Shown here: piece by piece, positions 10,336 through 36,205 of the stretch
How positions within the stretch are numbered: the first letter of the stretch is position 1
How the letters are laid out: the number at the start of each line of letters is the position of its first letter
From: a virus
Strand: one strand, 5' to 3'
IMG/VR virus record: IMGVR_UViG_3300037246_000798
Coordinates: 1 to 36,205 of that record
DNA: 36,205 nucleotides
Notes under the pieces: model-generated
The model's database searches: none
Seen by the model: only the letters and a program-made list of their open reading frames with translations
Told to the model about the DNA's origin: nothing
Translations under genes and position numbers: made by a program

Positions 10336-13300
10336 TTACGACCACATATTACGCCAACTTGAACCGTCCCAACATTGTGCAATATCATATGTAGTATTAT
10401 AAACAATCTGACCACCAGTTTTTGCTGGGTATATGTCGATTGCAGTTTGAGGAAGTCTTGGTAAAACAAATGTAGGGAATGTTCCCCAAAAACTTAGTTT
10501 TCCACCGTTTACCATAATATTTCCACCTTCCATGTTTAAATTTTCATTAGTAATATCAATAGTTCCTGTAATTCTAATATCCCCAGTCATAATAATGTTT
10601 GAGTATTGAGCCATATTGATGTCACCACCACTTGATATATTTAGGTCTCTTCCATTATTGATATTGATGTCACCGTTGCTGATGTTAAAGTCACCGTTGG
10701 TTAGGTCAAGGTCGCCACCAGTGATGTTAGCACCACCTGCATTAATATTTAGCTCACCAGTATAAATTGTAATACCTCCGATTGTGGCTAGAGCATCACC
10801 AGTTGAATCATTTTGTAGATGTAGGCAAGTTGTTGTTACAGCCAATGTATTATCGTTATGAATCTCAACTAAATTTCTTCCTGAGGTGTTAGATGAATTA
10901 CTATAAAAACTAGCTAGGCTTCCAGTTCTTAATGCGTTTCCTTGAACATAAAGAGCTTTTCCTTCAGTCACATAATCAGCATCTAGTTCCCAACCTATTC
11001 CTGTCGTCGCTGTACTTCGATGCTTGAATATACCACCATCTATTTCAATAGCCATAGCTCCACCTACATCTTGTCGAACATATAACGAAGTAGTATTTGT
11101 TGCTAATATATTATCGTTATGAATAAATACTAAATTTCTAACGCTAGTGTCTGCTGAATTACCATGAATATTCAATATAGTTTCAGTAGTCAAAGCATCA
11201 CCGTTAATTTCTACAGCTCCTTCAATAGTCAATCCATCAATTATTAAATCTCCATTAACATTCATATCTCCGTCTACATCTAGTTTATATGTAGGAATAG
11301 TAACTCCAATACCTACATTACCATTAGCAGATACTACTAAAGCATTTTCTAACCATCCCCACGCTCCCATAACCATAAGTCTAATTGAACCTTCATTTTC
11401 ATCAAAGATGTCGTTAATAAATGCTATTCCTGAAGAATGATTATAAAGTCCATGATTAAGAATACCTGTCCAAGTTCCATCTGTTCCATTAGTATTTTTT
11501 AATCCAATAGATTCATTTCCAATAGAAGAAAGGTCTGTACTTGCATTATTATATTGAATAGCTACTTTGGAATTAGGTTCATCAGTCCCAAACCCAACAT
11601 TACCGTCACCAAGAATTATCAAACGAGTTTCTCCACCAGTATGAATTTTCCAATACTCATTAGCTATATCACTATTTGCCATCATAGATACTGAGCCATC
11701 ACCCCAAAGGATTGGAGTGCTGTCAGACATTATTAATGTGCTATCTAATTTAAGATAACCATGAATCATACTATCCCCATCAACTTCTAGCGTATGAGTT
11801 GGAGCAACCATATTTGATAAGTCATCTCCTATTTTGACCATACCATTTTGTAGCATCATGCCAATCTTACCTGTACAATACCATCTGTGCCAGTCTAAAT
11901 CATCAATCCCACCACCACCGTTCCAAGTATCAATAGTCCATACTCTATGTTCAGGTTGACCTCCAAGACCTCTTCCATAAAGACCGTATCGACTGTAACC
12001 ATCGAGAACTCCTTGTGTCATATACCTATCACCAGTATTCCAACTTATACGTGAACCTTGACTAAAATCATTCTCAGGATTATAGCCAAGACGAACCTCA
12101 AACTCGCTGACAGGATTACTTGTTCCAATCCCAACATCACCAGTCTCATCATCAATAACAAAGTAGTCTTCCCCTAATCCTAATTCAGCGTTCTTGGAAA
12201 TCTTGAATTTCGACCCATCAGACTTGTCAAGACCCATAGTCATAAATCGATTACCTGTTAATAGAAAGTGAATAACTGCATCACCTGAACCAGCTTGCTC
12301 TACGACTAAACCAGCAGTAGCATCCACACTTGAATCACTTTGGTAAACATGAAGCGGATTTCCTAGAGGTGTAGGAACACCACCTACAATAGCATTACCA
12401 TTAACATGCAATTTAGCATCAGGACTATCCGTCCCAATCCCGAAATTACCACCACTATTGTCATATGAAACTGCCGTATCTGTAGTAAACAATACCTTCT
12501 GTGTTTCATTCTTGTCAAACATATGTATTGAACCATCACCGTCGCTACTTTCTCTTATCCATAGAAGGTCTTTACCTAAACTGCTCTCTACAGCAAAGGC
12601 ATTAAACGAAGGCTGAGGAGATTTAATTTTTAATAGAGAATCACCTAAACTTGTACTCAGGTCATTTGTCCCAATTCCGACACCTTCACCAGATTCGGTT
12701 GGAGACAGTACACCGTTTGAGCTAGTCCAATGACTTGCACCTGAAGCACTACTGCCAGTTCCCATTTGCCCTGCACCTATCACTTCGTGAATTATAGCAG
12801 TGTTGGTATCTGTAAGGTCTGTAGCTCCTTGCTGTACTACTAAATATGCTCGTAGAATAGCTCCACTTAAATCCTCTCTATTACGAGTAGGCACTTCAGT
12901 TAATACTGCTTTTTCTGCTAATGTTCGTGTGTCAAAAAGTGTTTGTCCATATAGCATTGTAAGTAGTTCACTTACTGGGTAATACCATACTTCTTGTATA
13001 GACCACTTACCAACTGGGATTTCTGTTCGTACTCCATCATTATCCCAATAGTTAGGGTCAATAGTTGTCTGTGGCATAACACTAGAACCTTGCAGTGCGT
13101 AGAAGTAAGAGTTAATTGCTGTTGCTCCACTATCAGGGTGAACATTTTCTATACCTTCTGTTGTATCAGCCGCATATCTGTAGGACATTCCTGATGATTT
13201 ACCTAATAGTAAGTTACCTGCTACAGCAGGGAAATATACATTTCCTGAAATATTCCATGCTCCATATTCAAGAATAAAGTCTTGAAAGGCTGTCTGTATT

Positions 13301-16449: not shown

Positions 16450-18462
16450 TCAATCAGATACGAAAACTAAAGTATCTCTGTCATTAATGTGTAGCGGTGT
16501 TGCTTTACCTTCAATCTTCTTACCTTTATAGATTATACCAAACAAATCCTCAAGTGGAATTGCTTGTTCAGCCGAACCATATTTCTTATTAAATATTTTG
16601 GAGATGTCCGACGTTACCTTATCATCGACCATAAGCAAATACTTTTTGATATTCATTTCGCCCATACTTTCCATAGCAGATAATGCTCCGTTTGAATTAG
16701 CCCTGTTCAACTCAGTTCGTATAATCCTCTCAGCTTCCACCCTAGTTTTATCCATTATACCCATAACCTCAACAGTAGAGTCAGCAGTAGATTTACCCTC
16801 AAGTATATTTCTTCGTAGAGTGTTTGTTAGAGCATCAGTATTCCTATCTTCCATAGACTTAATCAAATCAAAATTATAATTCTTTAAGAACTCAATCTCA
16901 TCTGCTCGTGGTGTGAAGTTTCTACCTAGCTTTCCAACAGCATAATCTCCACTCTCGATATATTTCTTAACAATGTCTGCTGAATATAACTCTGCTAAAA
17001 TTTGCCAATCAACAGTTGCTTTAACAGCATCTACAACCTCCTTAGGGTCTTTGATTACTTTAGTAAATTTAGACATCTCTTCCCTTATCTTAGATTTTGA
17101 TTTAGTGTTCCATTTCTTAAAAATTGATAGTGTAGAATTAACATCAGCGTCAGTGATAGGATTCAATTCAATGTGTACTTTTGGCTTATCCTCAGATTCG
17201 ACTTTTTTTTTAAACTTCATAGATTTCTCTAAGTCTTGTGCATCGTCGCTACGCTCTCCACTATCATCGCTTTCTTCAGAAGTATCTTCTGGGTAAGATT
17301 CATTAGTAGAGTCCTTCCAAATCATATTTGCCTCTGGAAATTCCTCATCGTCCAATTCTGGTAAACCCAATTCTTTTCTAGCTTCATTCAAAGTAACTAA
17401 CCCTTTCATCAATGTAACTCTCTCTATTTCTCGGACTTCATCTCTCTTACTAGCCTTGTCCAAAACAAAACTAATTAGGTCTAATCCTAATGGAGCTAAT
17501 AATTCAGTATCGACTTTATACTGTATAGCTTTCTGAAGTGAAGCTATTCTTCTATCGAATGCTTGTAACTCTACATCAGCACTAGCCTTGTTTGAACCTT
17601 CTGGGATACCAAGCATAATTGGTGGAACTAACATACCTACGATGATTTCTAATCTAGCTTCAGATAAAGCGTTCTTGAAATCCATATCCTTTTGAGCATC
17701 AAAAGAGGTAAATTTTATTCCTTCACCTTTTAGAAAAATATCTTTATGAGATTTTGTCTTATTATCGACGATAGACTTAACATTCAAATCGTATTCTTCT
17801 TCACCCATTTCCTCTGGGAAAGTCCAAACTCCTCTTGGCTTAAAGTTAGAGAACACATCTCCATTATATTTTTCAATAAATTTCTTTAGAGCAGATGAAT
17901 ATAAAACAGCAGAGATTAGTGATTGTCCTTCCAATGAACTACCAAAAATATTTGATGTATAATGAACAACATCATCAATTCCAAATTTAACCTTTTCAGT
18001 CCCATCAATTTCCTGAGCATATCCAGTTAATTCGCCTTTATCATTTTTCTTTATTTTCATAGACGGTGTATCAATAACATCGGACTTAAACATAGTCTTA
18101 CCTTGGTCAATCCAAATTCGTTTTTCCTGATACGCATCAGCCAATATAACAATAGATTTAGTAAGATTCTTAATTTTCTCTAAGAAATTATCATCATAAA
18201 ATAATCTATCAGCTTCCTCGATTTGTCTAGTAGCTTCATCATTATCTTCTTTAGCTTTAAAACTATAACCAGTACAAACATTATCCACAGTAACTTGAAC
18301 TCCAGCAGAAATAATTGGGTCTGATTGAGCATAAGCAATTAAAATATCATCAGTAACTACAAATGATTTGGACGTACAAGTGTCCTGAGACTTCTTTCCC
18401 GACTTCTTTGACTCCTTGTTTGGTGCTGGTTTTGCTTTTTTAAATCTATCAAATAATCCCAT
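16450..18462 (-). CDS. Portal protein fused to MuF-like head-morphogenesis domain
   Basis: A 670-residue protein. Residues about 30-400 read as a phage portal: early VVTDDILIAYAQSDPIISAGVQ, GSSLEGQSLISAVLYSSALKKF, the wing and stem region, GIPEGSNKASADVELQAFDRRIASLQKAIQ and LGLPELDDEEFPEANM. An acidic linker follows (about 390-420). Residues about 480-670 match an SPP1 gp7/MuF-type domain: LRRNILEGKSTADSTVEVMG, RVEAERIIRTELNRANSNGALSA, and a closing TPLHINDRDTLVFV corresponding to the usual PxHxxCRC end but without cysteines. These two functions are usually separate adjacent genes. It sits directly after terminase, as expected. Confidence 0.85.
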   Translation of the reverse strand: MGLFDRFKKAKPAPNKESKKSGKKSQDTCTSKSFVVTDDILIAYAQSDPIISAGVQVTVDNVCTGYSFKAKEDNDEATRQIEEADRLFYDDNFLEKIKNLTKSIVILADAYQEKRIWIDQGKTMFKSDVIDTPSMKIKKNDKGELTGYAQEIDGTEKVKFGIDDVVHYTSNIFGSSLEGQSLISAVLYSSALKKFIEKYNGDVFSNFKPRGVWTFPEEMGEEEYDLNVKSIVDNKTKSHKDIFLKGEGIKFTSFDAQKDMDFKNALSEARLEIIVGMLVPPIMLGIPEGSNKASADVELQAFDRRIASLQKAIQYKVDTELLAPLGLDLISFVLDKASKRDEVREIERVTLMKGLVTLNEARKELGLPELDDEEFPEANMIWKDSTNESYPEDTSEESDDSGERSDDAQDLEKSMKFKKKVESEDKPKVHIELNPITDADVNSTLSIFKKWNTKSKSKIREEMSKFTKVIKDPKEVVDAVKATVDWQILAELYSADIVKKYIESGDYAVGKLGRNFTPRADEIEFLKNYNFDLIKSMEDRNTDALTNTLRRNILEGKSTADSTVEVMGIMDKTRVEAERIIRTELNRANSNGALSAMESMGEMNIKKYLLMVDDKVTSDISKIFNKKYGSAEQAIPLEDLFGIIYKGKKIEGKATPLHINDRDTLVFVSD

Positions 18463-18499: not shown

Positions 18500-19855
18500 T
18501 TATCCAGACCCAACCCTGAAAGACCTTTTATTTACAACATAATACATTCTCATTATTAGGCAATCCAAAAGGTCTGGTGACCTACCCAGATTTTTCTTCA
18601 TTTCATCCTTGTTTATAATCTCTTTCTTGCTCATATCCTTGTCTAAATTGTTTCTCTTCAACTGACTCAACTCCTCAATTATAACCTGCTTCAACATTCT
18701 ATATTTTCCTTTAATCATAACCTGCTGACTTTCTGGAATATCAATATATAATTTACCTAAGTTAATCATCTCAGCCAATTTGAAAGCACACTCATTCTTA
18801 GTGTTACGATAAACATCACCATCCTTAGCAGGTTTACCACCCTTGAACTCTTTGATACCTTTCATGTAACTCTCCAAGTAATTTCCCATTCCATCAGAAT
18901 CAGCTAGAACTCTACTTCGTGGAGTCTTTGTATCTTCTGCATATTTCTTCAGAGTTGTCTCAATATCTTTACCATCAGACTTAGCTCTTATCACTGGGAA
19001 CTTAACTCGTAACCCTTCCCATGTTGTAACCACAAAATTATCACGTCCTTGCATCGCTAAATCAGACACAACAAAATTCTTACCTGCTTTTATAAAATCA
19101 TTAGTGAAACAATCCCTGATATTCTCAAATTTACACATGGCTCTAGCATCGTCATCATAATCGAAGTTACCTAGAAGCAATCTCTGTCTAGTAATCTCAT
19201 CAGAGTTCTCCAACTGGATGATATAGTCTCTTGGTAGATGTGGATTATCAGTAGCCAATGCTGGGATGAAACAAACATAATCGAATAATGAATCCTCTTT
19301 CCAAGGTGCGTAATATCTTGTATAAACATGGTTCTTAGAGGGATTGAATGTTTCAAGTAATTTAGGAAGAATATTATATTTATCATTATTACCTCTACCA
19401 ATTCTCGTCTTGATAATCTGAATAGCTTTAAGGTCAATCTCATTGCTTTCATCCAAGAAAGCCCCTGTCAATTCCAATCCACCAAACCTTAGATATTCTG
19501 GGTCACTTGGCTGGTGAGCCATATCCATCAGAAGAATCTTAGAACCATTATGGAAGACAATCTCATTTGACTGATTGTTCATCTTGAATATATCGTCTGG
19601 GTTAATCTTCAAGTCCTTTAGCAATTTAAAGAATGAGGAAAGTGTAGTTCGCTTCAGATTTGTAAGACTTCTACGACCCATCAAATAAACTACATCGGGG
19701 AATGCTAAACATTGTGATAACAACCAGAAACATCCTAAATAGCTTTTCCCGCCACCAGCACTCCCACCATATCCAATCTCTCTGGTAATGTTATCCTTCA
19801 ATTTCATGTAAGCTATCGACTGCTTAAATGTAGGCTTAAAATTAATCTGTATCAT
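18500..19855 (-). CDS. terL: Terminase large subunit
   Basis: A 451-residue ATPase-nuclease. The Walker A-like GSAGGGKS is at residues 31-38, Walker B LTGAFLDES at 129-137 with D135/E136, and a coupling segment ETFNP at about 168-172. The RNase H-like nuclease is marked by D265 (FVVSDLA), D319/D321 (VLADSDGMG) and the SPDLLD motif with D428/D431. It translocates viral DNA into the prohead through the portal and cuts it. Its start overlaps the end of the small subunit gene by 14 bp, and the portal promoter lies directly downstream. Circular assembly of the genome would fit headful packaging, but this is not proven. Confidence 0.93.
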   Translation of the reverse strand: MIQINFKPTFKQSIAYMKLKDNITREIGYGGSAGGGKSYLGCFWLLSQCLAFPDVVYLMGRRSLTNLKRTTLSSFFKLLKDLKINPDDIFKMNNQSNEIVFHNGSKILLMDMAHQPSDPEYLRFGGLELTGAFLDESNEIDLKAIQIIKTRIGRGNNDKYNILPKLLETFNPSKNHVYTRYYAPWKEDSLFDYVCFIPALATDNPHLPRDYIIQLENSDEITRQRLLLGNFDYDDDARAMCKFENIRDCFTNDFIKAGKNFVVSDLAMQGRDNFVVTTWEGLRVKFPVIRAKSDGKDIETTLKKYAEDTKTPRSRVLADSDGMGNYLESYMKGIKEFKGGKPAKDGDVYRNTKNECAFKLAEMINLGKLYIDIPESQQVMIKGKYRMLKQVIIEELSQLKRNNLDKDMSKKEIINKDEMKKNLGRSPDLLDCLIMRMYYVVNKRSFRVGSG

Positions 19856-23350: not shown

Positions 23351-23365
23351 AGTAAACTTTAAATA
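23351..23365 (+). promoter_or_regulatory. BRE/TATA promoter for first rightward gene
   Basis: AGTAAACTTTAAATA, ending 22 nt before the ATG at 23387. Confidence 0.7.
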
Positions 23366-25076: not shown

Positions 25077-25097
25077 CCTACTGTGTTGAATAAAAAA

Positions 25098-27146
25098 ATG
25101 GTGAAACCTCCACAAAATAAAACTTCTAATGTAAATATTGAGAAAGAGAATATTAAGAAAATAGGTGGGATGATTTCTGTATTAAAATCAAAGTCTGGAA
25201 AAGAGTATCATAAAGTTCTTCTTAAAATAGTTATGGAAATTGGATTCAGAATGGGAGAAACCTCGTCGTGGTTAGTTCAGAATTTGAAAGAAGAATCTAA
25301 TTTTTTTATAACAGACTTCATGGTGGTTGAAAAACAAATAATGAAAGATGGTTCAACAAAGGGAAAACTAGAAACTGATATAGCCATTGATGATTATGAT
25401 TATGAAGAGTTAAGCATAGGAACAATCCGAGAAACTCACAGTAATAAGCCAATTATATTTGATTGTTCTATTGATTCAATTACCCAAGTATATATTGAGG
25501 TTGTCTGCCATGTTTACAAATGTGAATCCTGTGGGGCTGTTTCTAATCAAGCTAAGAAGAAAGCTCCTGAATGTCCTAATTGTGAAAAGAAAATGAAATA
25601 TGATAGCACTGTAGAACATGATGTTCAAGAGTTAGTAGCAACAGAGATACAAGACGAGGTTGGTTCAAGACAGGCTCAAAGAATGAGAATCAAACTTATT
25701 GGAGACAGAGTTCCTAAGGAAATTAGAGAGGATTTGGTTGGAGGAAACCGAGTTAGGATTTGTGGGATTGTTACTTCTGAGAAATTGAATGTCAAGAAAG
25801 AATTGGAGATTAGGGAATTTGTAATCAAGGCATTGAAGATTGAGACTTTGGAAGACAACTTGGATGATGAAATCACCGCAGAGGACATGGAGGAGATTAA
25901 GAAGATTGCGTCTGACAACCCATTCAAGAAGTTGACGGACAACTTTGCACCGAGTATTTCGGGGATGGAGGATATTAAGAAAGCTACTGTGCTTCAAATG
26001 GCAGGTGGAGTAAAAGAGCAAAAGCTTATGGGAGCTAATACACGAGGTATGATTCATTTATTGGTCTGCGGTTCACCTGGAACTGGAAAATCTGAGATTC
26101 TTGAGAACCATAAACTCCGAGTTCCTAAGTCAATATTTGTGAGTGGTGACAACACAACTGCTGTTGGTTTGACTGCTGGAGTTGAGAAGGAAGAGCTTAC
26201 TGGGCGTTGGGCTTTGAAGGCTGGTTCTATGGTTAAGGCTCATGGTGGGTTCATCGAATTAGACGAGTTGGAGAAAATGCACGAAGACCACATCAAATCA
26301 CTACACACTCCAATGGAGAAGGGACAGGTTATTATAAACAAGGCTGGAATCAAGGCGACTATGGGAGCAGAGACCTCTATTATTGCGTGTTCTAATCCTC
26401 GTAAGGGCGATTTTAGGACAGGAATACCCAAGATAGAACAAATGGGTCTACCACCTGCACTAATCAATAGATTTGACCTAATCTTTGCTATTGAGTCCGC
26501 ACACACTGATGAGGAGATTACTAGCATTAACAAGATGATTTATTTTGGTAAGGAAGATGAGGCTGAGTTGATTTCGATTGAATTATATCGGAAGTATATG
26601 ATACATTGTCGGACATATAAGCCGAAGTTTTCTCCAGAGATGTTTGACACACTTAATGATTTCTTTTTGGACATGGTTGCTAAGATGAAGGGGAACGTAG
26701 AGATGAAAGCCTTTCCAATGAACGCAAGATTTTTTACAGGTATGATGAGACTGGCTCAAGCCAGTGCTAAAATTAGATTATCAAATGAAGTCAACGAAGG
26801 AGATATAGAAATTGCCAAGTCTATTATTTTGGCTTCATTTGATTCACTTGGAATCAACAAGGATAATATTGATGAGTTAGGATTTATTAACACTGGTAAA
26901 ACTGTCGAGGAGAAGAAGGGAGATGATAGGCTCGATGAGTGGAAAGCTAAGGTTGAAGTTGAATCAACTGAGGTTCACAAACTTCTTATGGCAACTGGTA
27001 AGAAAAATCTCACTTATACCGAAGTTAAATTCATGTTGTCGGACAAAGGTATTGACGAGAAAAGGCTGGGGCAAATCATTAAGAGACTTGAACACAATGG
27101 TAAGATTCAGAAAATTATGGAGAATATTGAGGTGCTAGACTTATGA
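25098..27146 (+). CDS. mcm: MCM replicative helicase
   Basis: 682 residues from the ATG at 25098. An N-terminal domain contains a zinc finger with C142/C145 (CESC) and C159/C162 (CPNC). The AAA+ domain has Walker A GSPGTGKS at 325-332, Walker B IELDEL with D389/E390, sensor-1 N433 (IIACSN) and the arginine finger R458 in LINRFD. The C-terminal winged helix is VHKLLMATGKKNLTYTEVKFML...GQIIKRLEHNGKI. It unwinds DNA 3' to 5' as a hexamer. Archaeal viruses and plasmids carry such genes acquired from hosts. It is the only replication enzyme visible, so polymerase, primase and clamp are presumably from the host. Confidence 0.95.
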   Translation: MVKPPQNKTSNVNIEKENIKKIGGMISVLKSKSGKEYHKVLLKIVMEIGFRMGETSSWLVQNLKEESNFFITDFMVVEKQIMKDGSTKGKLETDIAIDDYDYEELSIGTIRETHSNKPIIFDCSIDSITQVYIEVVCHVYKCESCGAVSNQAKKKAPECPNCEKKMKYDSTVEHDVQELVATEIQDEVGSRQAQRMRIKLIGDRVPKEIREDLVGGNRVRICGIVTSEKLNVKKELEIREFVIKALKIETLEDNLDDEITAEDMEEIKKIASDNPFKKLTDNFAPSISGMEDIKKATVLQMAGGVKEQKLMGANTRGMIHLLVCGSPGTGKSEILENHKLRVPKSIFVSGDNTTAVGLTAGVEKEELTGRWALKAGSMVKAHGGFIELDELEKMHEDHIKSLHTPMEKGQVIINKAGIKATMGAETSIIACSNPRKGDFRTGIPKIEQMGLPPALINRFDLIFAIESAHTDEEITSINKMIYFGKEDEAELISIELYRKYMIHCRTYKPKFSPEMFDTLNDFFLDMVAKMKGNVEMKAFPMNARFFTGMMRLAQASAKIRLSNEVNEGDIEIAKSIILASFDSLGINKDNIDELGFINTGKTVEEKKGDDRLDEWKAKVEVESTEVHKLLMATGKKNLTYTEVKFMLSDKGIDEKRLGQIIKRLEHNGKIQKIMENIEVLDL

Positions 27147-29806: not shown

Positions 29807-32119
29807 TTAATTTGTCTTCTGATGTTTGATATTCACATTAATTGTAGCGTAGTCCAACAGCGTCGCTGATAGGATGTTGCTTGAATAAATAATCTTGTAA
29901 ACCCCAGCACTATCAAAATCACTTAGAGGAAGATTATATCCTTCAAGACCATCGAACCATTCTTGATTCAATAATTGGAAAGTGTTTCTTGTAACCCTAG
30001 CAACAGGGAAACCTGAACTATCATAATACATATACATAAGATTATTTGAAACATACCCAACACAAACAGCACCAGCCTCATCATAATTACTATCAGTTAA
30101 TCCATCAACTTGCATAGTGTATGGAATCTCAGCATCAGTTGCTAACTCCCAAGAATCATAATTCCAGATATAGTGTTTCAAATCTATTATTCCTGAAGCA
30201 TCCACGATGTGAATCATATAGAGCCTTCCAAGATGAGTGTAAGTATTATGTTTGATTAGTCCGACAACCGAGGTGTTATTCAACTCAGTATAGGGTAATC
30301 CTTCTAATAGTGTGTTGGTTGCAGATGCAATCCAAACTTCTCCTGTGAAACTATATTGATAAAAAACAAGTCTTGAATTTCCAGTAGTTAGATAATCATC
30401 GTCAGCAACTAAGCAATACAGTTTACCGTTATCCCAGAAAACATCTGGATTATTTTGTTGTCCAACAGGTAATCCATCCTCTTGAATTGTTCCGTCAGAA
30501 TAATCTGATGTGAATTGCCACGCCCCACTTCTCCAAACAAACAAAACCATATTACTAGCTCCACCAGTAACATACAAATAAGTCTCATCATTATATTCAA
30601 AAGAAGAACAATTATTCATATTACTGATATTATCTAAATTGCCAGTTTCAATATCCCATTCCTTAGAGTTAGCCTTATCATATTTATAAACTAAAGCTTG
30701 GGTAGAACTACCTCTACACATGAATAAATAGGTTTCACCATCAATATTCAAAAATGTCATATCTGTTATAGCTGTCGTTATAGGTAAATCAGTTGTATAA
30801 ACACTAGCCCCATAGAATGTTGTCTTAGCATCATGGACTTCTAAAGCCAAACCATCTCCATTGATTGTTGAATCGTTATTGATACCGTAAGCTGTATTTT
30901 GTAATGCACCCTCAATCTTATAGTCGACTGTGACAGAATTAATTCTAGGATTTCCAGCGAAGTCTAAAACATCTTCTGGTGCAAGATTTAATATAATTTC
31001 TTTAGTATCATTCATAGATGAGTTTTGTGCATTAACATAGTTCAAAGTATTCTCAGAGCCATCAGTATAAGTATCAGTATCTCTAACCTTTCTATTAGTT
31101 CCACCGAGGACTTCATTCCTTTTCTTAAACACTTGTGAGTATTCTTTGTTGGCAACTGTAAGTGTAAGAAATTCATTTCCGCCAATGCAACCTCTCTCAA
31201 TCTCAGAGATTCTAACTTCCTCAGAAATAATGTCTTTCTCCAAAGAGTTTAATGTTATAACATCACCACTCTCCAAATCTAAAGAAGGATTTACTAAATC
31301 GAATTTGTATGACTTGATTGCACTTCCATAAACAATCGCAAGAACATCAGCTAATTTGTTTGCTTCAAGAGTTGACACAATAGTTGGGTCTGTCTCAGTG
31401 TGAACAATTAATCCCCAATTTGTCTGACTATCTGAATTTTGTCCATGAGCAGGGTACTCGCTAACAATTCTCTGATTACCAACACCACTACCATAAACAA
31501 TAATCTTATTTCCCTTTGGCTCTAGTTGGTCAAAGATTGGGTTGACGAAATCTAATCCATCATTCAGAGTCATAACAGAAGTCTCGCTACCTTTGTGGTC
31601 AACCAAATTTACTGTTGAATCACTATCCTTAAAATATAAGTCCTGATTTGTTTTCTTCCTCAAATTCTGAAGAACATTCAAATAAGAGGAACTAACCTTA
31701 GCCTTAAAATCTAAAGTGAAAGCATTTTCTATAGTACCTGCATTGAATCCACCATCCGAGATAATATCACCTGCTATTACACTTGTTGGTTTCTTAATCC
31801 ATTTTTCATCAGCGTCGTAACCATCCCTAGACAATAATGCTAACTTTGAAACACACCTAAGAGATATACCTCCACCGTCCAAAAAAGATTTACCAACTGG
31901 ATAACCAGTAAACTCAACAACACCATTTTTCAAAATCTCAACTTTGTTATTTATACCAACTTCAAATAGTTCCCTAGTCTCAGGAGTAGACGCAGGTAAT
32001 TTAACCGAAGCTTCGTCGACATTGTTTAATCTATCAGTGTATTGACAAAAACTATTTCCATCAAAAGTTGAAGTAACAAACGTAGTTTGATTAGTTAATC
32101 TAACCTTGTAATTTACCAT
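29807..32119 (-). CDS. Tail hub/baseplate protein with C-terminal propeller-like domain
   Basis: A 770-residue protein. Residues about 1-340 fit a siphovirus tail hub (gp27-like): VNYKVRLTNQTTFVTSTFDG, RLNNVDEASVKLP, VEILKNGVVEFTGY, then SYLNVLQNLRKKTNQDLYF and late SGDVITLNSLEKDIISEEVRISEIERG. Residues about 440-770 contain repeated blades such as DGETYLFMCRGSSTQALVYKYD, NDETYLYVTGG..VLFVWRSGAW and NGKLYCLVADDD, reading as a beta-propeller, probably a receptor-binding or tip module. It follows Dit by overlap, as expected. Where the hub ends is approximate. Confidence 0.75.
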   Translation of the reverse strand: MVNYKVRLTNQTTFVTSTFDGNSFCQYTDRLNNVDEASVKLPASTPETRELFEVGINNKVEILKNGVVEFTGYPVGKSFLDGGGISLRCVSKLALLSRDGYDADEKWIKKPTSVIAGDIISDGGFNAGTIENAFTLDFKAKVSSSYLNVLQNLRKKTNQDLYFKDSDSTVNLVDHKGSETSVMTLNDGLDFVNPIFDQLEPKGNKIIVYGSGVGNQRIVSEYPAHGQNSDSQTNWGLIVHTETDPTIVSTLEANKLADVLAIVYGSAIKSYKFDLVNPSLDLESGDVITLNSLEKDIISEEVRISEIERGCIGGNEFLTLTVANKEYSQVFKKRNEVLGGTNRKVRDTDTYTDGSENTLNYVNAQNSSMNDTKEIILNLAPEDVLDFAGNPRINSVTVDYKIEGALQNTAYGINNDSTINGDGLALEVHDAKTTFYGASVYTTDLPITTAITDMTFLNIDGETYLFMCRGSSTQALVYKYDKANSKEWDIETGNLDNISNMNNCSSFEYNDETYLYVTGGASNMVLFVWRSGAWQFTSDYSDGTIQEDGLPVGQQNNPDVFWDNGKLYCLVADDDYLTTGNSRLVFYQYSFTGEVWIASATNTLLEGLPYTELNNTSVVGLIKHNTYTHLGRLYMIHIVDASGIIDLKHYIWNYDSWELATDAEIPYTMQVDGLTDSNYDEAGAVCVGYVSNNLMYMYYDSSGFPVARVTRNTFQLLNQEWFDGLEGYNLPLSDFDSAGVYKIIYSSNILSATLLDYATINVNIKHQKTN

Positions 32120-32883
32120 TATAATGAGTAAGCGTCACGATATTTAGTTGTGACCCCAGTGACATTCGTTATACTAACATCTGTATTATCTCCACCAGAA
32201 GGAATTTGTAATGCACCATAACCCCCGACAGAATTAACAGCCTTTGTAACTACTCCATTAATCTCAAAAATTGCATACTCAGTTAACATTACACCTGAAC
32301 CAGAATCATTCATTTTAACAAATGTGTATGTTATAACATCACTAGATGATAATTGTGAAGATGAGATTTCAAAGTTACGACCTTCAACGTCAGTGAATAC
32401 AACATCTCCTGAACCATCATAGGTACAAGTAATCTCTTCAACATAAGTTGGAGCGTCACCACCATTGGAAACAGTTGTATGCAAAACATCTCCGAACACA
32501 ACAGGGACTATTTGTTTGAAACCACATACATAATCAATAAACCCAATTCTTCCACCAGTGTTAATGCTCTTACAATCCACTCCGACACCAAGCATGAACC
32601 TATTATCTTCCCAATACAATTTCTTTAATTGGTTAGTTTCAAGTAAGAAGTGTTTATTGATTGCTCTCATGTCAGATTCTTTAGAAGAGCCAGAGACGTG
32701 ACCAGAAAGGATAATTGATTTAGGTCTAACTGACCCATTAGATGTAATAACAGGGAAAGGTGCATTTGCTGTCTCTTTAATTCCTACACTAGAAATCCCA
32801 GACCTATCTACCGAACTTGGATTGTTCGGGAAAGTAAAAGTATCTGCTGTTCCTTCGTAGTTTTCTATTTTCATATTTGCCAT
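32119..32883 (-). CDS. Distal tail protein (Dit-like)
   Basis: A 254-residue protein. The N-terminal part (FPNNPSSVDRSGISSVGIKETANAPFPVI, KSIILSGHVSG, RAINKHFLLETNQLKKLYWEDNRF, RIGFIDYVCGFKQ) matches the N-terminal ring domain of Dit proteins. The C-terminal half is a beta-sandwich (NFEISSSQLSSSDVITYTFVKM, EYAIFEING). It sits between tape measure and hub and overlaps the hub start by one base, the standard order. Confidence 0.72.
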   Translation of the reverse strand: MANMKIENYEGTADTFTFPNNPSSVDRSGISSVGIKETANAPFPVITSNGSVRPKSIILSGHVSGSSKESDMRAINKHFLLETNQLKKLYWEDNRFMLGVGVDCKSINTGGRIGFIDYVCGFKQIVPVVFGDVLHTTVSNGGDAPTYVEEITCTYDGSGDVVFTDVEGRNFEISSSQLSSSDVITYTFVKMNDSGSGVMLTEYAIFEINGVVTKAVNSVGGYGALQIPSGGDNTDVSITNVTGVTTKYRDAYSL

Positions 32884-33882: not shown

Positions 33883-34119
33883 TTAATTTAATGCACCCAT
33901 TGTATTTATCAGTTCATCTCTCTTTTTAAGTCTTTTAGCCTTCTCAAATTCTGCATCTTCAATATCAGAGAACATAAAAACATCTTCAACACTCATAGAA
34001 TCGAAGTCAAGCATAGACATACCCTTGTTAAAAGACTTATATCTTAGAAAAAGTAATTTTTGTCGTCTATTATCAAATGAAATAGAGTCACCAGAAAACA
34101 GAATTTTATCTATAACTTT
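33883..34119 (-). CDS. -1 frame extension of tail chaperone (gpGT-like)
   Basis: This frame has no upstream stop and no own start with a Shine-Dalgarno. It runs 78 codons from the A9 slip site to a TAA at 33883, two bases before the tape measure start, and encodes a charged helical domain (VIDKILFSGDSISFDN ... KAKRLKKRDELINTMGALN). A -1 shift joins it to the 34472 frame, giving a fused product of about 196 residues, exactly as in the conserved G/GT arrangement of long-tailed phages. Confidence 0.8.
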   Translation of the reverse strand, partial: KVIDKILFSGDSISFDNRRQKLLFLRYKSFNKGMSMLDFDSMSVEDVFMFSDIEDAEFEKAKRLKKRDELINTMGALN

Positions 34120-34472
34120 TTTTTTAAATCTTCGGAAGAAGTTTCAATCTTAGCAATAGCAACAGTTATCTCAGCAAAAACAGCAGAAGACATCTTATTC
34201 AAAAGTTGTAGTTTGTCATCCATAGATAATTCCGACCACTCTTTGTCGACGCTGATAACAGAATTGATAGTTTCTTTATTATATGGGATAGCAGATAATC
34301 CAAACGCAACTTTATACAAAGCGTATAACTGCATATCAAGCTCTTCCTTTATTACAAAATACTTAGCATCCATAGAAAGCTCTCTTTTAACTGAAAGTTT
34401 TTTGTAAGTAAACTCACCGCTATCTGTTGTAAATTTAACATCTTCATCCAGAACAAAATCATTAATAGTCAT
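34110..34472 (-). CDS. Tail assembly chaperone (gpG-like) with -1 frameshift site
   Basis: A 120-residue protein placed between tail tube and tape measure, as for gpG. Helical throughout, with KLSVKRELSMDAKYFVIKEELDMQLYALYKVAFG. It ends DLKKKL at a TTTAAAAAAAAAG run (A9 at 34117-34125), immediately before its TAG. A -1 shift there opens a 78-codon extension ending just before the tape measure. The ATG overlaps the tube gene by 11 bp. The two products chaperone the tape measure during tail assembly (family knowledge). Confidence 0.82.
   Translation of the reverse strand: MTINDFVLDEDVKFTTDSGEFTYKKLSVKRELSMDAKYFVIKEELDMQLYALYKVAFGLSAIPYNKETINSVISVDKEWSELSMDDKLQLLNKMSSAVFAEITVAIAKIETSSEDLKKKL
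34117..34128 (-). promoter_or_regulatory. Slippery site for -1 frameshift (TTTAAAAAAAAA)
   Basis: Minus-strand codons in the zero frame are GAT TTA AAA AAA AAG TTA TAG. Moving back one base reads AAA AAA AAA GTT ATA GAT and avoids the TAG. The A9 run suits ribosomal slippage on AAA-AAA; transcriptional slippage is an alternative. Confidence 0.8.
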
Positions 34473-35418
34473 CTAAACCATCCTCCACTACAATACCTAA
34501 TGTCATAGGTCTACCAACAACGTCTGTGTTCGTGATACCTTCCATATTAGTTGCACCCAATGCGTTCCCGATATACAAACTCCCGAATGTAATCTCAACA
34601 CTGTCTGCTGTAGCTCCTCTAATTATCTCTAACTTTGATACACCTGTAAGAACCTCTCCTGTAAATCCATCGTATAATGTCTTATCCTTTTGGTTAATAT
34701 TAAATGTGAAATCGTAAGACTTCTTAGTACAAACTGGTTCTCCAATCTTACCATTCAAATCTACTGAAGCATAAAGAGTATCCTCGTCAGTGATTCCATT
34801 ATCAAGGTTAATCTCACCAGAGTTTACTTCGTCATAAACAATATCATCAATAGTTAGTCTAACAGTATCAAAAGTATAACATTCACCAGTCTCTTTGATT
34901 GTAGCGGATAGAGCAGAACCTTCAACAACATCCTGAGCAATACATTCCATAACTACTTTTACAAAAGCATCCTTACCACCAGTTCCTTTAGAGAATTGTA
35001 ACTTGTAGCTCTTAACAGTAACACCTAGGAAATCTAAAACTTGGTCAGTATCTTGTGGTCTAATCCATTTCATAGAGAAAGATTCGATAGCTAGAGCAGT
35101 TAAGAAAGTGTGGTCAAATCCACCAGAGATAACATCATTACTTACAACACCACTGTGTGTATTATATTTTAGCATCTTAAAGTTAGTAGGGATGTATTCT
35201 ATTGTGAAAGGATATAGTGTAGTGTTCTTTTTCAAAGCAACCATTTCAGCGTCGCTACCACCGTTATTATCAATCTCTGCAAAATTATGTGAAAAATTAG
35301 GAGTCACCTTAACATCATATCCCATAGATTCAGCGTCTTCAAAGTCAGTAACTAATACTCCATAATCTACTTCAGGTTTCCATACAACATTTTCAGTTCT
35401 TCCGATTCCGATTACCAT
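34462..35418 (-). CDS. Major tail tube protein
   Basis: A 318-residue protein, the first of the tail operon. It begins MVIGIGRTENVVWKPEVDYG and has the tube pattern: PNFSHNFAEIDNNGGSDAEMVALKKNTTLYPFTIEYIP, then DHTFLTALAIESFSMKW, KLQFSKGTGGKDAFVKVVMEC, and a C-terminal VEITFGSLYIGNALG. No sheath gene was found next to it, so the tail should be non-contractile. It has a strong BRE/TATA promoter, box 22 nt from the ATG. Confidence 0.78.
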   Translation of the reverse strand: MVIGIGRTENVVWKPEVDYGVLVTDFEDAESMGYDVKVTPNFSHNFAEIDNNGGSDAEMVALKKNTTLYPFTIEYIPTNFKMLKYNTHSGVVSNDVISGGFDHTFLTALAIESFSMKWIRPQDTDQVLDFLGVTVKSYKLQFSKGTGGKDAFVKVVMECIAQDVVEGSALSATIKETGECYTFDTVRLTIDDIVYDEVNSGEINLDNGITDEDTLYASVDLNGKIGEPVCTKKSYDFTFNINQKDKTLYDGFTGEVLTGVSKLEIIRGATADSVEITFGSLYIGNALGATNMEGITNTDVVGRPMTLGIVVEDGLDDY

Positions 35419-36192: not shown

Positions 36193-36205
36193 AGATCGGA
36201 AGAGA
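36193..36205. other. Illumina adapter remnant
   Basis: AGATCGGAAGAGA matches the start of the common TruSeq adapter (AGATCGGAAGAGC) in 12 of 13 bases and replaces the viral sequence found at 127 onwards. It is a sequencing artefact, not viral DNA. Confidence 0.93.

Follow-up and report, generated by a model that had tools for sequence, protein, structure and literature searches.

Between its tail tube and tape measure genes, a virus known from an IMG/VR record carries two overlapping reading frames joined at a run of adenines. The question raised by this locus is whether a tail assembly chaperone is made there in two forms through a programmed -1 shift, and, if so, whether it is the ribosome or the RNA polymerase that slips, and in what kind of host. 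Analysis of the window, by which is meant the whole 36,205-base stretch of that record, indicates that the locus is best understood as a G/GT tail chaperone produced by programmed -1 slippage in a tailed virus (class Caudoviricetes) whose host is most likely archaeal, a reading to which a probability of roughly 0.82 may be attached. This reading draws on gene order, conservation across 26 relatives, profiles of both frames, purifying selection on the T frame and the predicted fold of G, which together bear out the G/GT arrangement proposed in the sequence-only reading of this DNA. The features concerned are collected in the table.

Table. Features of the window bearing on the G/GT locus and on the host, with the evidence for each
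Feature	Position	Strand	Evidence
Tail tube protein	34462..35418	-	Pfam PF18906 Phage_tube_2, E 2.5e-6; 32-38% identity to relatives
G-like tail assembly chaperone gene (0 frame), 120 aa	34110..34472	-	open frame; relatives' profile; fold model
Slip site T TTA AAA AAA AAG	34116..34127	-	sequence; in-frame heptamer in 26/26 relatives
T domain, readable only via a -1 shift, 79 codons + TAA	33883..34122	-	open -1 frame; profile; dN/dS; AlphaFold
Short tape measure protein, 330 aa	32889..33881	-	PHROG tape-measure families, best E 9.5e-6
Conserved tail gene 3' of the tape measure	32119..32883	-	22 related contigs, 28-44% identity; bait for relatives
MCM replicative helicase	25083..27146	+	Pfam MCM, E 1.2e-61
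Archaeal-type TATA box TTTAAATA, 29 nt 5' of ATG 23387	23358..23365	+	one of eight

On the minus strand of the window the genes follow the order tail tube, G, T and tape measure. The G frame closes with GAT TTA AAA AAA AAG TTA TAG, giving a protein that ends in DLKKKL, and its stop lies two codons 3' of a run of nine adenines (A9, 34125..34117); the distance of six codons first given for this stop holds if counted from the TTA at the start of the run. From the A-run the -1 frame reads KKKVIDKIL...NTMGALN up to a TAA at 33885..33883, which is separated from the tape-measure ATG (33881) by a single base rather than by the two originally counted. Three in-frame heptamers of the X_XXY_YYZ form, namely T_TTA_AAA, A_AAA_AAA and A_AAA_AAG, lie inside the overlap of the two frames. 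The central observation of the sequence-only reading, an A-run followed by a -1 frame open as far as the tape measure, is readily seen: over the 230 nt that follow the slip site as far as the TAA, the -1 frame contains no stop as against 6 and 15 in the other two frames, and it stays open in only 1 of 5000 dinucleotide shuffles. ATG codons are present within this frame, and T is devoid of a start of its own near its beginning. Runs of this length are rare, the window holding just one other, at 17211 on the minus strand within the portal gene. There, the 13-mer TTTAAAAAAAAAG of the slip site recurs in another phase, and the -1 frame is closed by a stop only a few codons on, with no long open stretch, making this copy a natural negative control. 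A search against Rfam detected no known RNA element, and no tRNA was found in the window.

Direct searches with G, the tape measure and MCM recovered no usable relatives from viral or genome collections, on account, in the case of G and the tape measure, of the great divergence of both proteins. The tail tube led to one relative (L003, 35% identity), whose layout matches that of the window: a tube gene, a G frame ending GTA AAA AAA AAC TAA, and a -1 frame free of stops as far as the tape measure. Further contigs were fetched with window and L003 alignments of the tube and of the gene 3' of the tape measure, and removal of duplicates and of false pairings, in which neighbouring genes overlapped by chance, resulted in a final set of 26 relatives in addition to the window, with 24 distinct sites upon merging near-identical ones. 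The order tube, G, T and tape measure is maintained in all 26 related contigs, which come from many metagenomes. Further, T lies in the -1 frame relative to G at each of the 27 loci, with an in-frame X_XXY_YYZ heptamer in every overlap, and the T stop of most loci directly adjoins the tape measure start or overlaps with it (e.g., TAAAATG, TAAATG). As a separate matter, an HNH-endonuclease-like ORF separates T from the tape measure in the contig L008 (2899-3462; also L009 and L011). A second copy of part of the start, ATGGTAGAAATA, lies 3' of this ORF, and the corresponding junction in L012 is uninterrupted; no intron match was obtained from Rfam.

The heptamer in the 26 relatives is most often A_AAA_AAC (20 sites), followed by A_AAA_AAA (4), with single instances of A_AAA_AAT (L036) and C_CCT_TTA (L016), the slip position of the last being a guess from the sole heptamer present there. 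The window itself carries A_AAA_AAG, such that AAC is the dominant A-site codon across the sites (20/27). The A-runs range from 6 to 10 bases, with none at all in L016, and although A9-A10 runs are common, A9 is not universal. Checked against the refuting condition set by the sequence-only reading, the relatives keep the -1 frame throughout and the A9 run often but not always, and a slippery heptamer is in frame in every one of them. An in-frame heptamer persists even at the 9 distinct sites, out of 24, whose A-run is limited to A6-A7 or is missing altogether. The run begins at the third codon position in 25 of the 27 sites, as the heptamer requires, a phase that is partly forced by common descent and by the G frame.

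To establish homology, HMMs of G and T were built from the 26 relatives, with the window excluded, and run against its six frames. The G profile matched 34472-34113 (E 1.6e-21) and the T profile matched the -1 frame (E 2.4e-13), with nothing else below 0.5 in any of the six frames; the latter match indicates that the product of the -1 frame in the window is homologous to T. When close relatives are compared, the dN/dS values of T are 0.08-0.20, similar to those of G, and purifying selection of this kind implies that T is expressed as a protein. By sequence, neither G nor T has a significant match to a chaperone family in Pfam or PHROGs. Two relatives of G hit a T4 baseplate family at a weak E of 0.019, a match that was not used.

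Modelled with AlphaFold from 25 sequences (pLDDT 85.5), G finds its best solved match in Bacillus subtilis YqbN (3klu; Foldseek probability 0.92, E 0.25; VIA Z 7.6, rmsd 3.6 over 97), and resembles the HK97 tail assembly chaperone (2ob9; VIA Z 4.7, rmsd 5.2 over 91) as well. Additionally, several of the top BFVD matches of the model are named tail assembly chaperones, with probabilities up to 1.00. The scores against the solved structures are moderate (Z < 8, Foldseek E > 0.001), and the predicted chaperone-like fold of G is accordingly to be taken as supportive rather than as proof. With 7-14% identity to 2ob9 and 3klu, the likeness is one of fold, and sequence gives no demonstration of common descent. 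The model of T is helical (pLDDT 89.9) and has no convincing solved counterpart in the PDB.

The G/GT reading suggests the following course of events. Most ribosomes would read the G frame and terminate two codons past the A9 run, yielding the 120-aa G protein. A minority would move back by a single base, either at A_AAA_AAG or at the T_TTA_AAA or A_AAA_AAA preceding it, and carry on into T; the resulting GT fusion would measure about 196 aa and have KKKV at its junction. If lambda is taken as the model, G might coat the tape measure protein and T might recruit tail tube subunits, in which case the ratio of G to GT would be important in tail assembly. While the frames, their homology and conservation, the selection on T and the chaperone-like fold of G are seen directly in the data, that slippage occurs in infected cells and at what rate, that the ribosome is its agent, and that G and T have these roles are points which we infer from the sequences and models described above.

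The same fusion could also come about if an archaeal-type RNA polymerase added one A at the A9 run in some transcripts, and the earlier suggestion that the shift might be ribosomal or transcriptional was a fair one. Both Shine-Dalgarno-like pairing upstream of a slip site and structure downstream of it are known stimulators of bacterial frameshifting. Some of the short-run sites (L036, L018, L016) combine strong pairing of this type with downstream structure; in L036, for example, the Shine-Dalgarno-like duplex reaches -11.3 kcal/mol and the z of the downstream fold about -4.4 to -5.4. The A9 site of the window, on the other hand, lacks both: the z for downstream structure is about 0, and no Shine-Dalgarno-like element is present. 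Considered as groups, short-run sites have stronger downstream structure than long-run sites (Mann-Whitney p 0.012, with phylogeny ignored and two measures examined), and the relationship of Shine-Dalgarno-like pairing to run length gives p 0.06, again with phylogeny ignored. It seems as if the stimulators compensate for a short A-run, which is best regarded as a lead only. The frequency of A9-A10 runs among the relatives, the weaker structure of the long-run group, and the absence of stimulators at a window run long enough to arouse suspicion would all be in keeping with a slipping polymerase. However, a long homopolymer is not conserved across the relatives; their heptamers stay in frame even where only six adenines, or no run at all, are left, and several short-run sites are flanked by a Shine-Dalgarno-like stretch on the 5' side and by a hairpin on the 3' side. 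The usual phase of the run, with the above-noted constraint of descent and frame, and the description of the published archaeal-virus cases as ribosomal point the same way. Ribosomal slippage is therefore the favoured mechanism, as judged from comparison of the sites, and polymerase slippage at the window's own A9 is less likely, indeed rather unlikely; the relatives tilt the balance towards the ribosome without settling the matter for the window A9. A mixed situation, in which the window makes GT through RNA polymerase slippage on A9 and its short-run relatives make it through stimulated ribosomes, so that one fusion is reached by two mechanisms, appears slightly more doubtful still.

Two further explanations dispense with slippage altogether. 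Given the ATG codons inside the -1 frame, T might be a separate protein, reinitiated in its own frame after the G stop. This is very improbable, since the conservation of T starts right at the slip site (KKLIxKI), 5' of all the internal ATGs of the window, a pattern which favours a fusion over separate initiation. On the strength of this conservation and of the in-frame heptamer always found in the G/T overlap, independent translation of T is rejected. Alternatively, G and T might be one continuous gene split by an error of sequencing or assembly. Homopolymers are prone to such errors, and adapter sequence has indeed been retained at one end of the contig: AGATCGGAAGAG at 36193-36204 is the beginning of an Illumina adapter, and the right end of the contig is probably artificial. 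The same -1 relation, however, is shared by another 26 contigs, whose A-runs measure 6, 7, 8, 9 or 10 or are absent, and errors would not all yield an identical frame relation. The error explanation is thus rejected, its likelihood being next to nil.

With regard to the host, the sequence-only reading had pointed to an archaeal-type virus, a view which the MCM replicative helicase, of archaeal/eukaryotic type, and the archaeal-type promoters support. All 16 matches of the MCM in the phage collection are from archaeal viruses, and its best matches among solved structures are MCM proteins, with 4fdg first. A TATA-like box lies 27-35 bases 5' of 8 of the 21 intergenic starts, as against 1.0 expected. 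No such excess is present in two AT-rich Bacteroidetes phages (L064, L066), and it is also lacking in the archaeal virus MFTV1, which means that only a positive outcome of this promoter test carries information. It could instead be supposed that the frameshift mechanism is correctly identified and that the host is bacterial, for instance a member of the Bacteroidetes, with the MCM acquired from archaea. The large terminase subunit (18500-19855) does group with Bacteroidetes phages, at up to 43% identity, and a search of 22 related records, a good many of which are fragments, detected no MCM. Against this stand the TATA boxes, about 29 nt 5' of the starts, and their lack of excess in the two Bacteroidetes phages, the uniformly archaeal-virus affinity of the MCM, and the presence of haloarchaeal viruses among the portal relatives of the family. 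A bacterial host consequently appears improbable. The genome is, from these affinities, a mosaic of a Bacteroidetes-like terminase with an archaeal-looking MCM and promoters, and the host of the window virus, to which alone this statement applies, is very probably archaeal.

In terms of broader significance, the window locus extends G/GT recoding to what is probably an archaeal virus lineage of low GC. According to a 2021 review (PMC8211752), only one cellular case of -1 frameshifting has been studied experimentally in archaea. The 27 aligned natural shift sites, with their varied run lengths and stimulators, offer a test set for how archaeal ribosomes or polymerases slip. They also have value for annotation, in that ordinary gene callers miss T.

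The lambda-type G/GT frameshift has been described as conserved in long-tailed phages (Xu, Hendrix and Duda 2004, as cited in PMC5009743). Like lambda gpG/gpGT, the window locus has two overlapping frames between the tail tube and the tape measure, a -1 shift at a slippery heptamer close to where G ends, and a T without its own start. Unlike the lambda system, it has no detectable similarity in Pfam or PHROGs, a long A-run (A_AAA_AAG with its neighbours) forms its slip site, and its host is probably archaeal. Among archaeal viruses, chaperone overlaps with the opposite direction of shift are also on record: a +1 shift at TTT-CGC has been proposed for the HF1-group haloviruses (PMC7230728), and a +1 shift has likewise been proposed for HSTV-2 (PMC5009743), in contrast to the -1 shift of the window. 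In Methanocaldococcus fervens tailed virus 1 (L065, NC_074641; 11406-11917), an open frame of 56 aa in the +1 phase comes after the G-like gp17, and the overlap contains an in-frame TCC TTT CGC at 11742, equivalent to the TTT-CGN +1 motif proposed for the HF1 group. This virus may, from its sequence, have an unannotated +1 tail-chaperone shift.

The closest parallels are provided by the haloarchaeal viruses HVTV-1 and HCTV-1, -2 and -5, for which a -1 tail-chaperone shift has been proposed, with A_AAA_AAC as the slip site of HCTV-2 (PMC5009743, PMC8211752), and Hardycor1, in which a -1 shift of the tail chaperone has been proposed, with G GGA AAT as the site (PMC7911831). In the light of these precedents, the novelty implied when the window locus was first noted is unsupported. 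They share with it a -1 chaperone overlap at an X_XXY_YYZ heptamer, and the HCTV-2 site is the one most common among the relatives of the window. They differ in that all of them infect haloarchaea, whereas the window has 34% GC, an A9 run and relatives consisting of uncultivated metagenomic contigs. The window locus is, in sum, a new and sequence-divergent instance of the known G/GT system.
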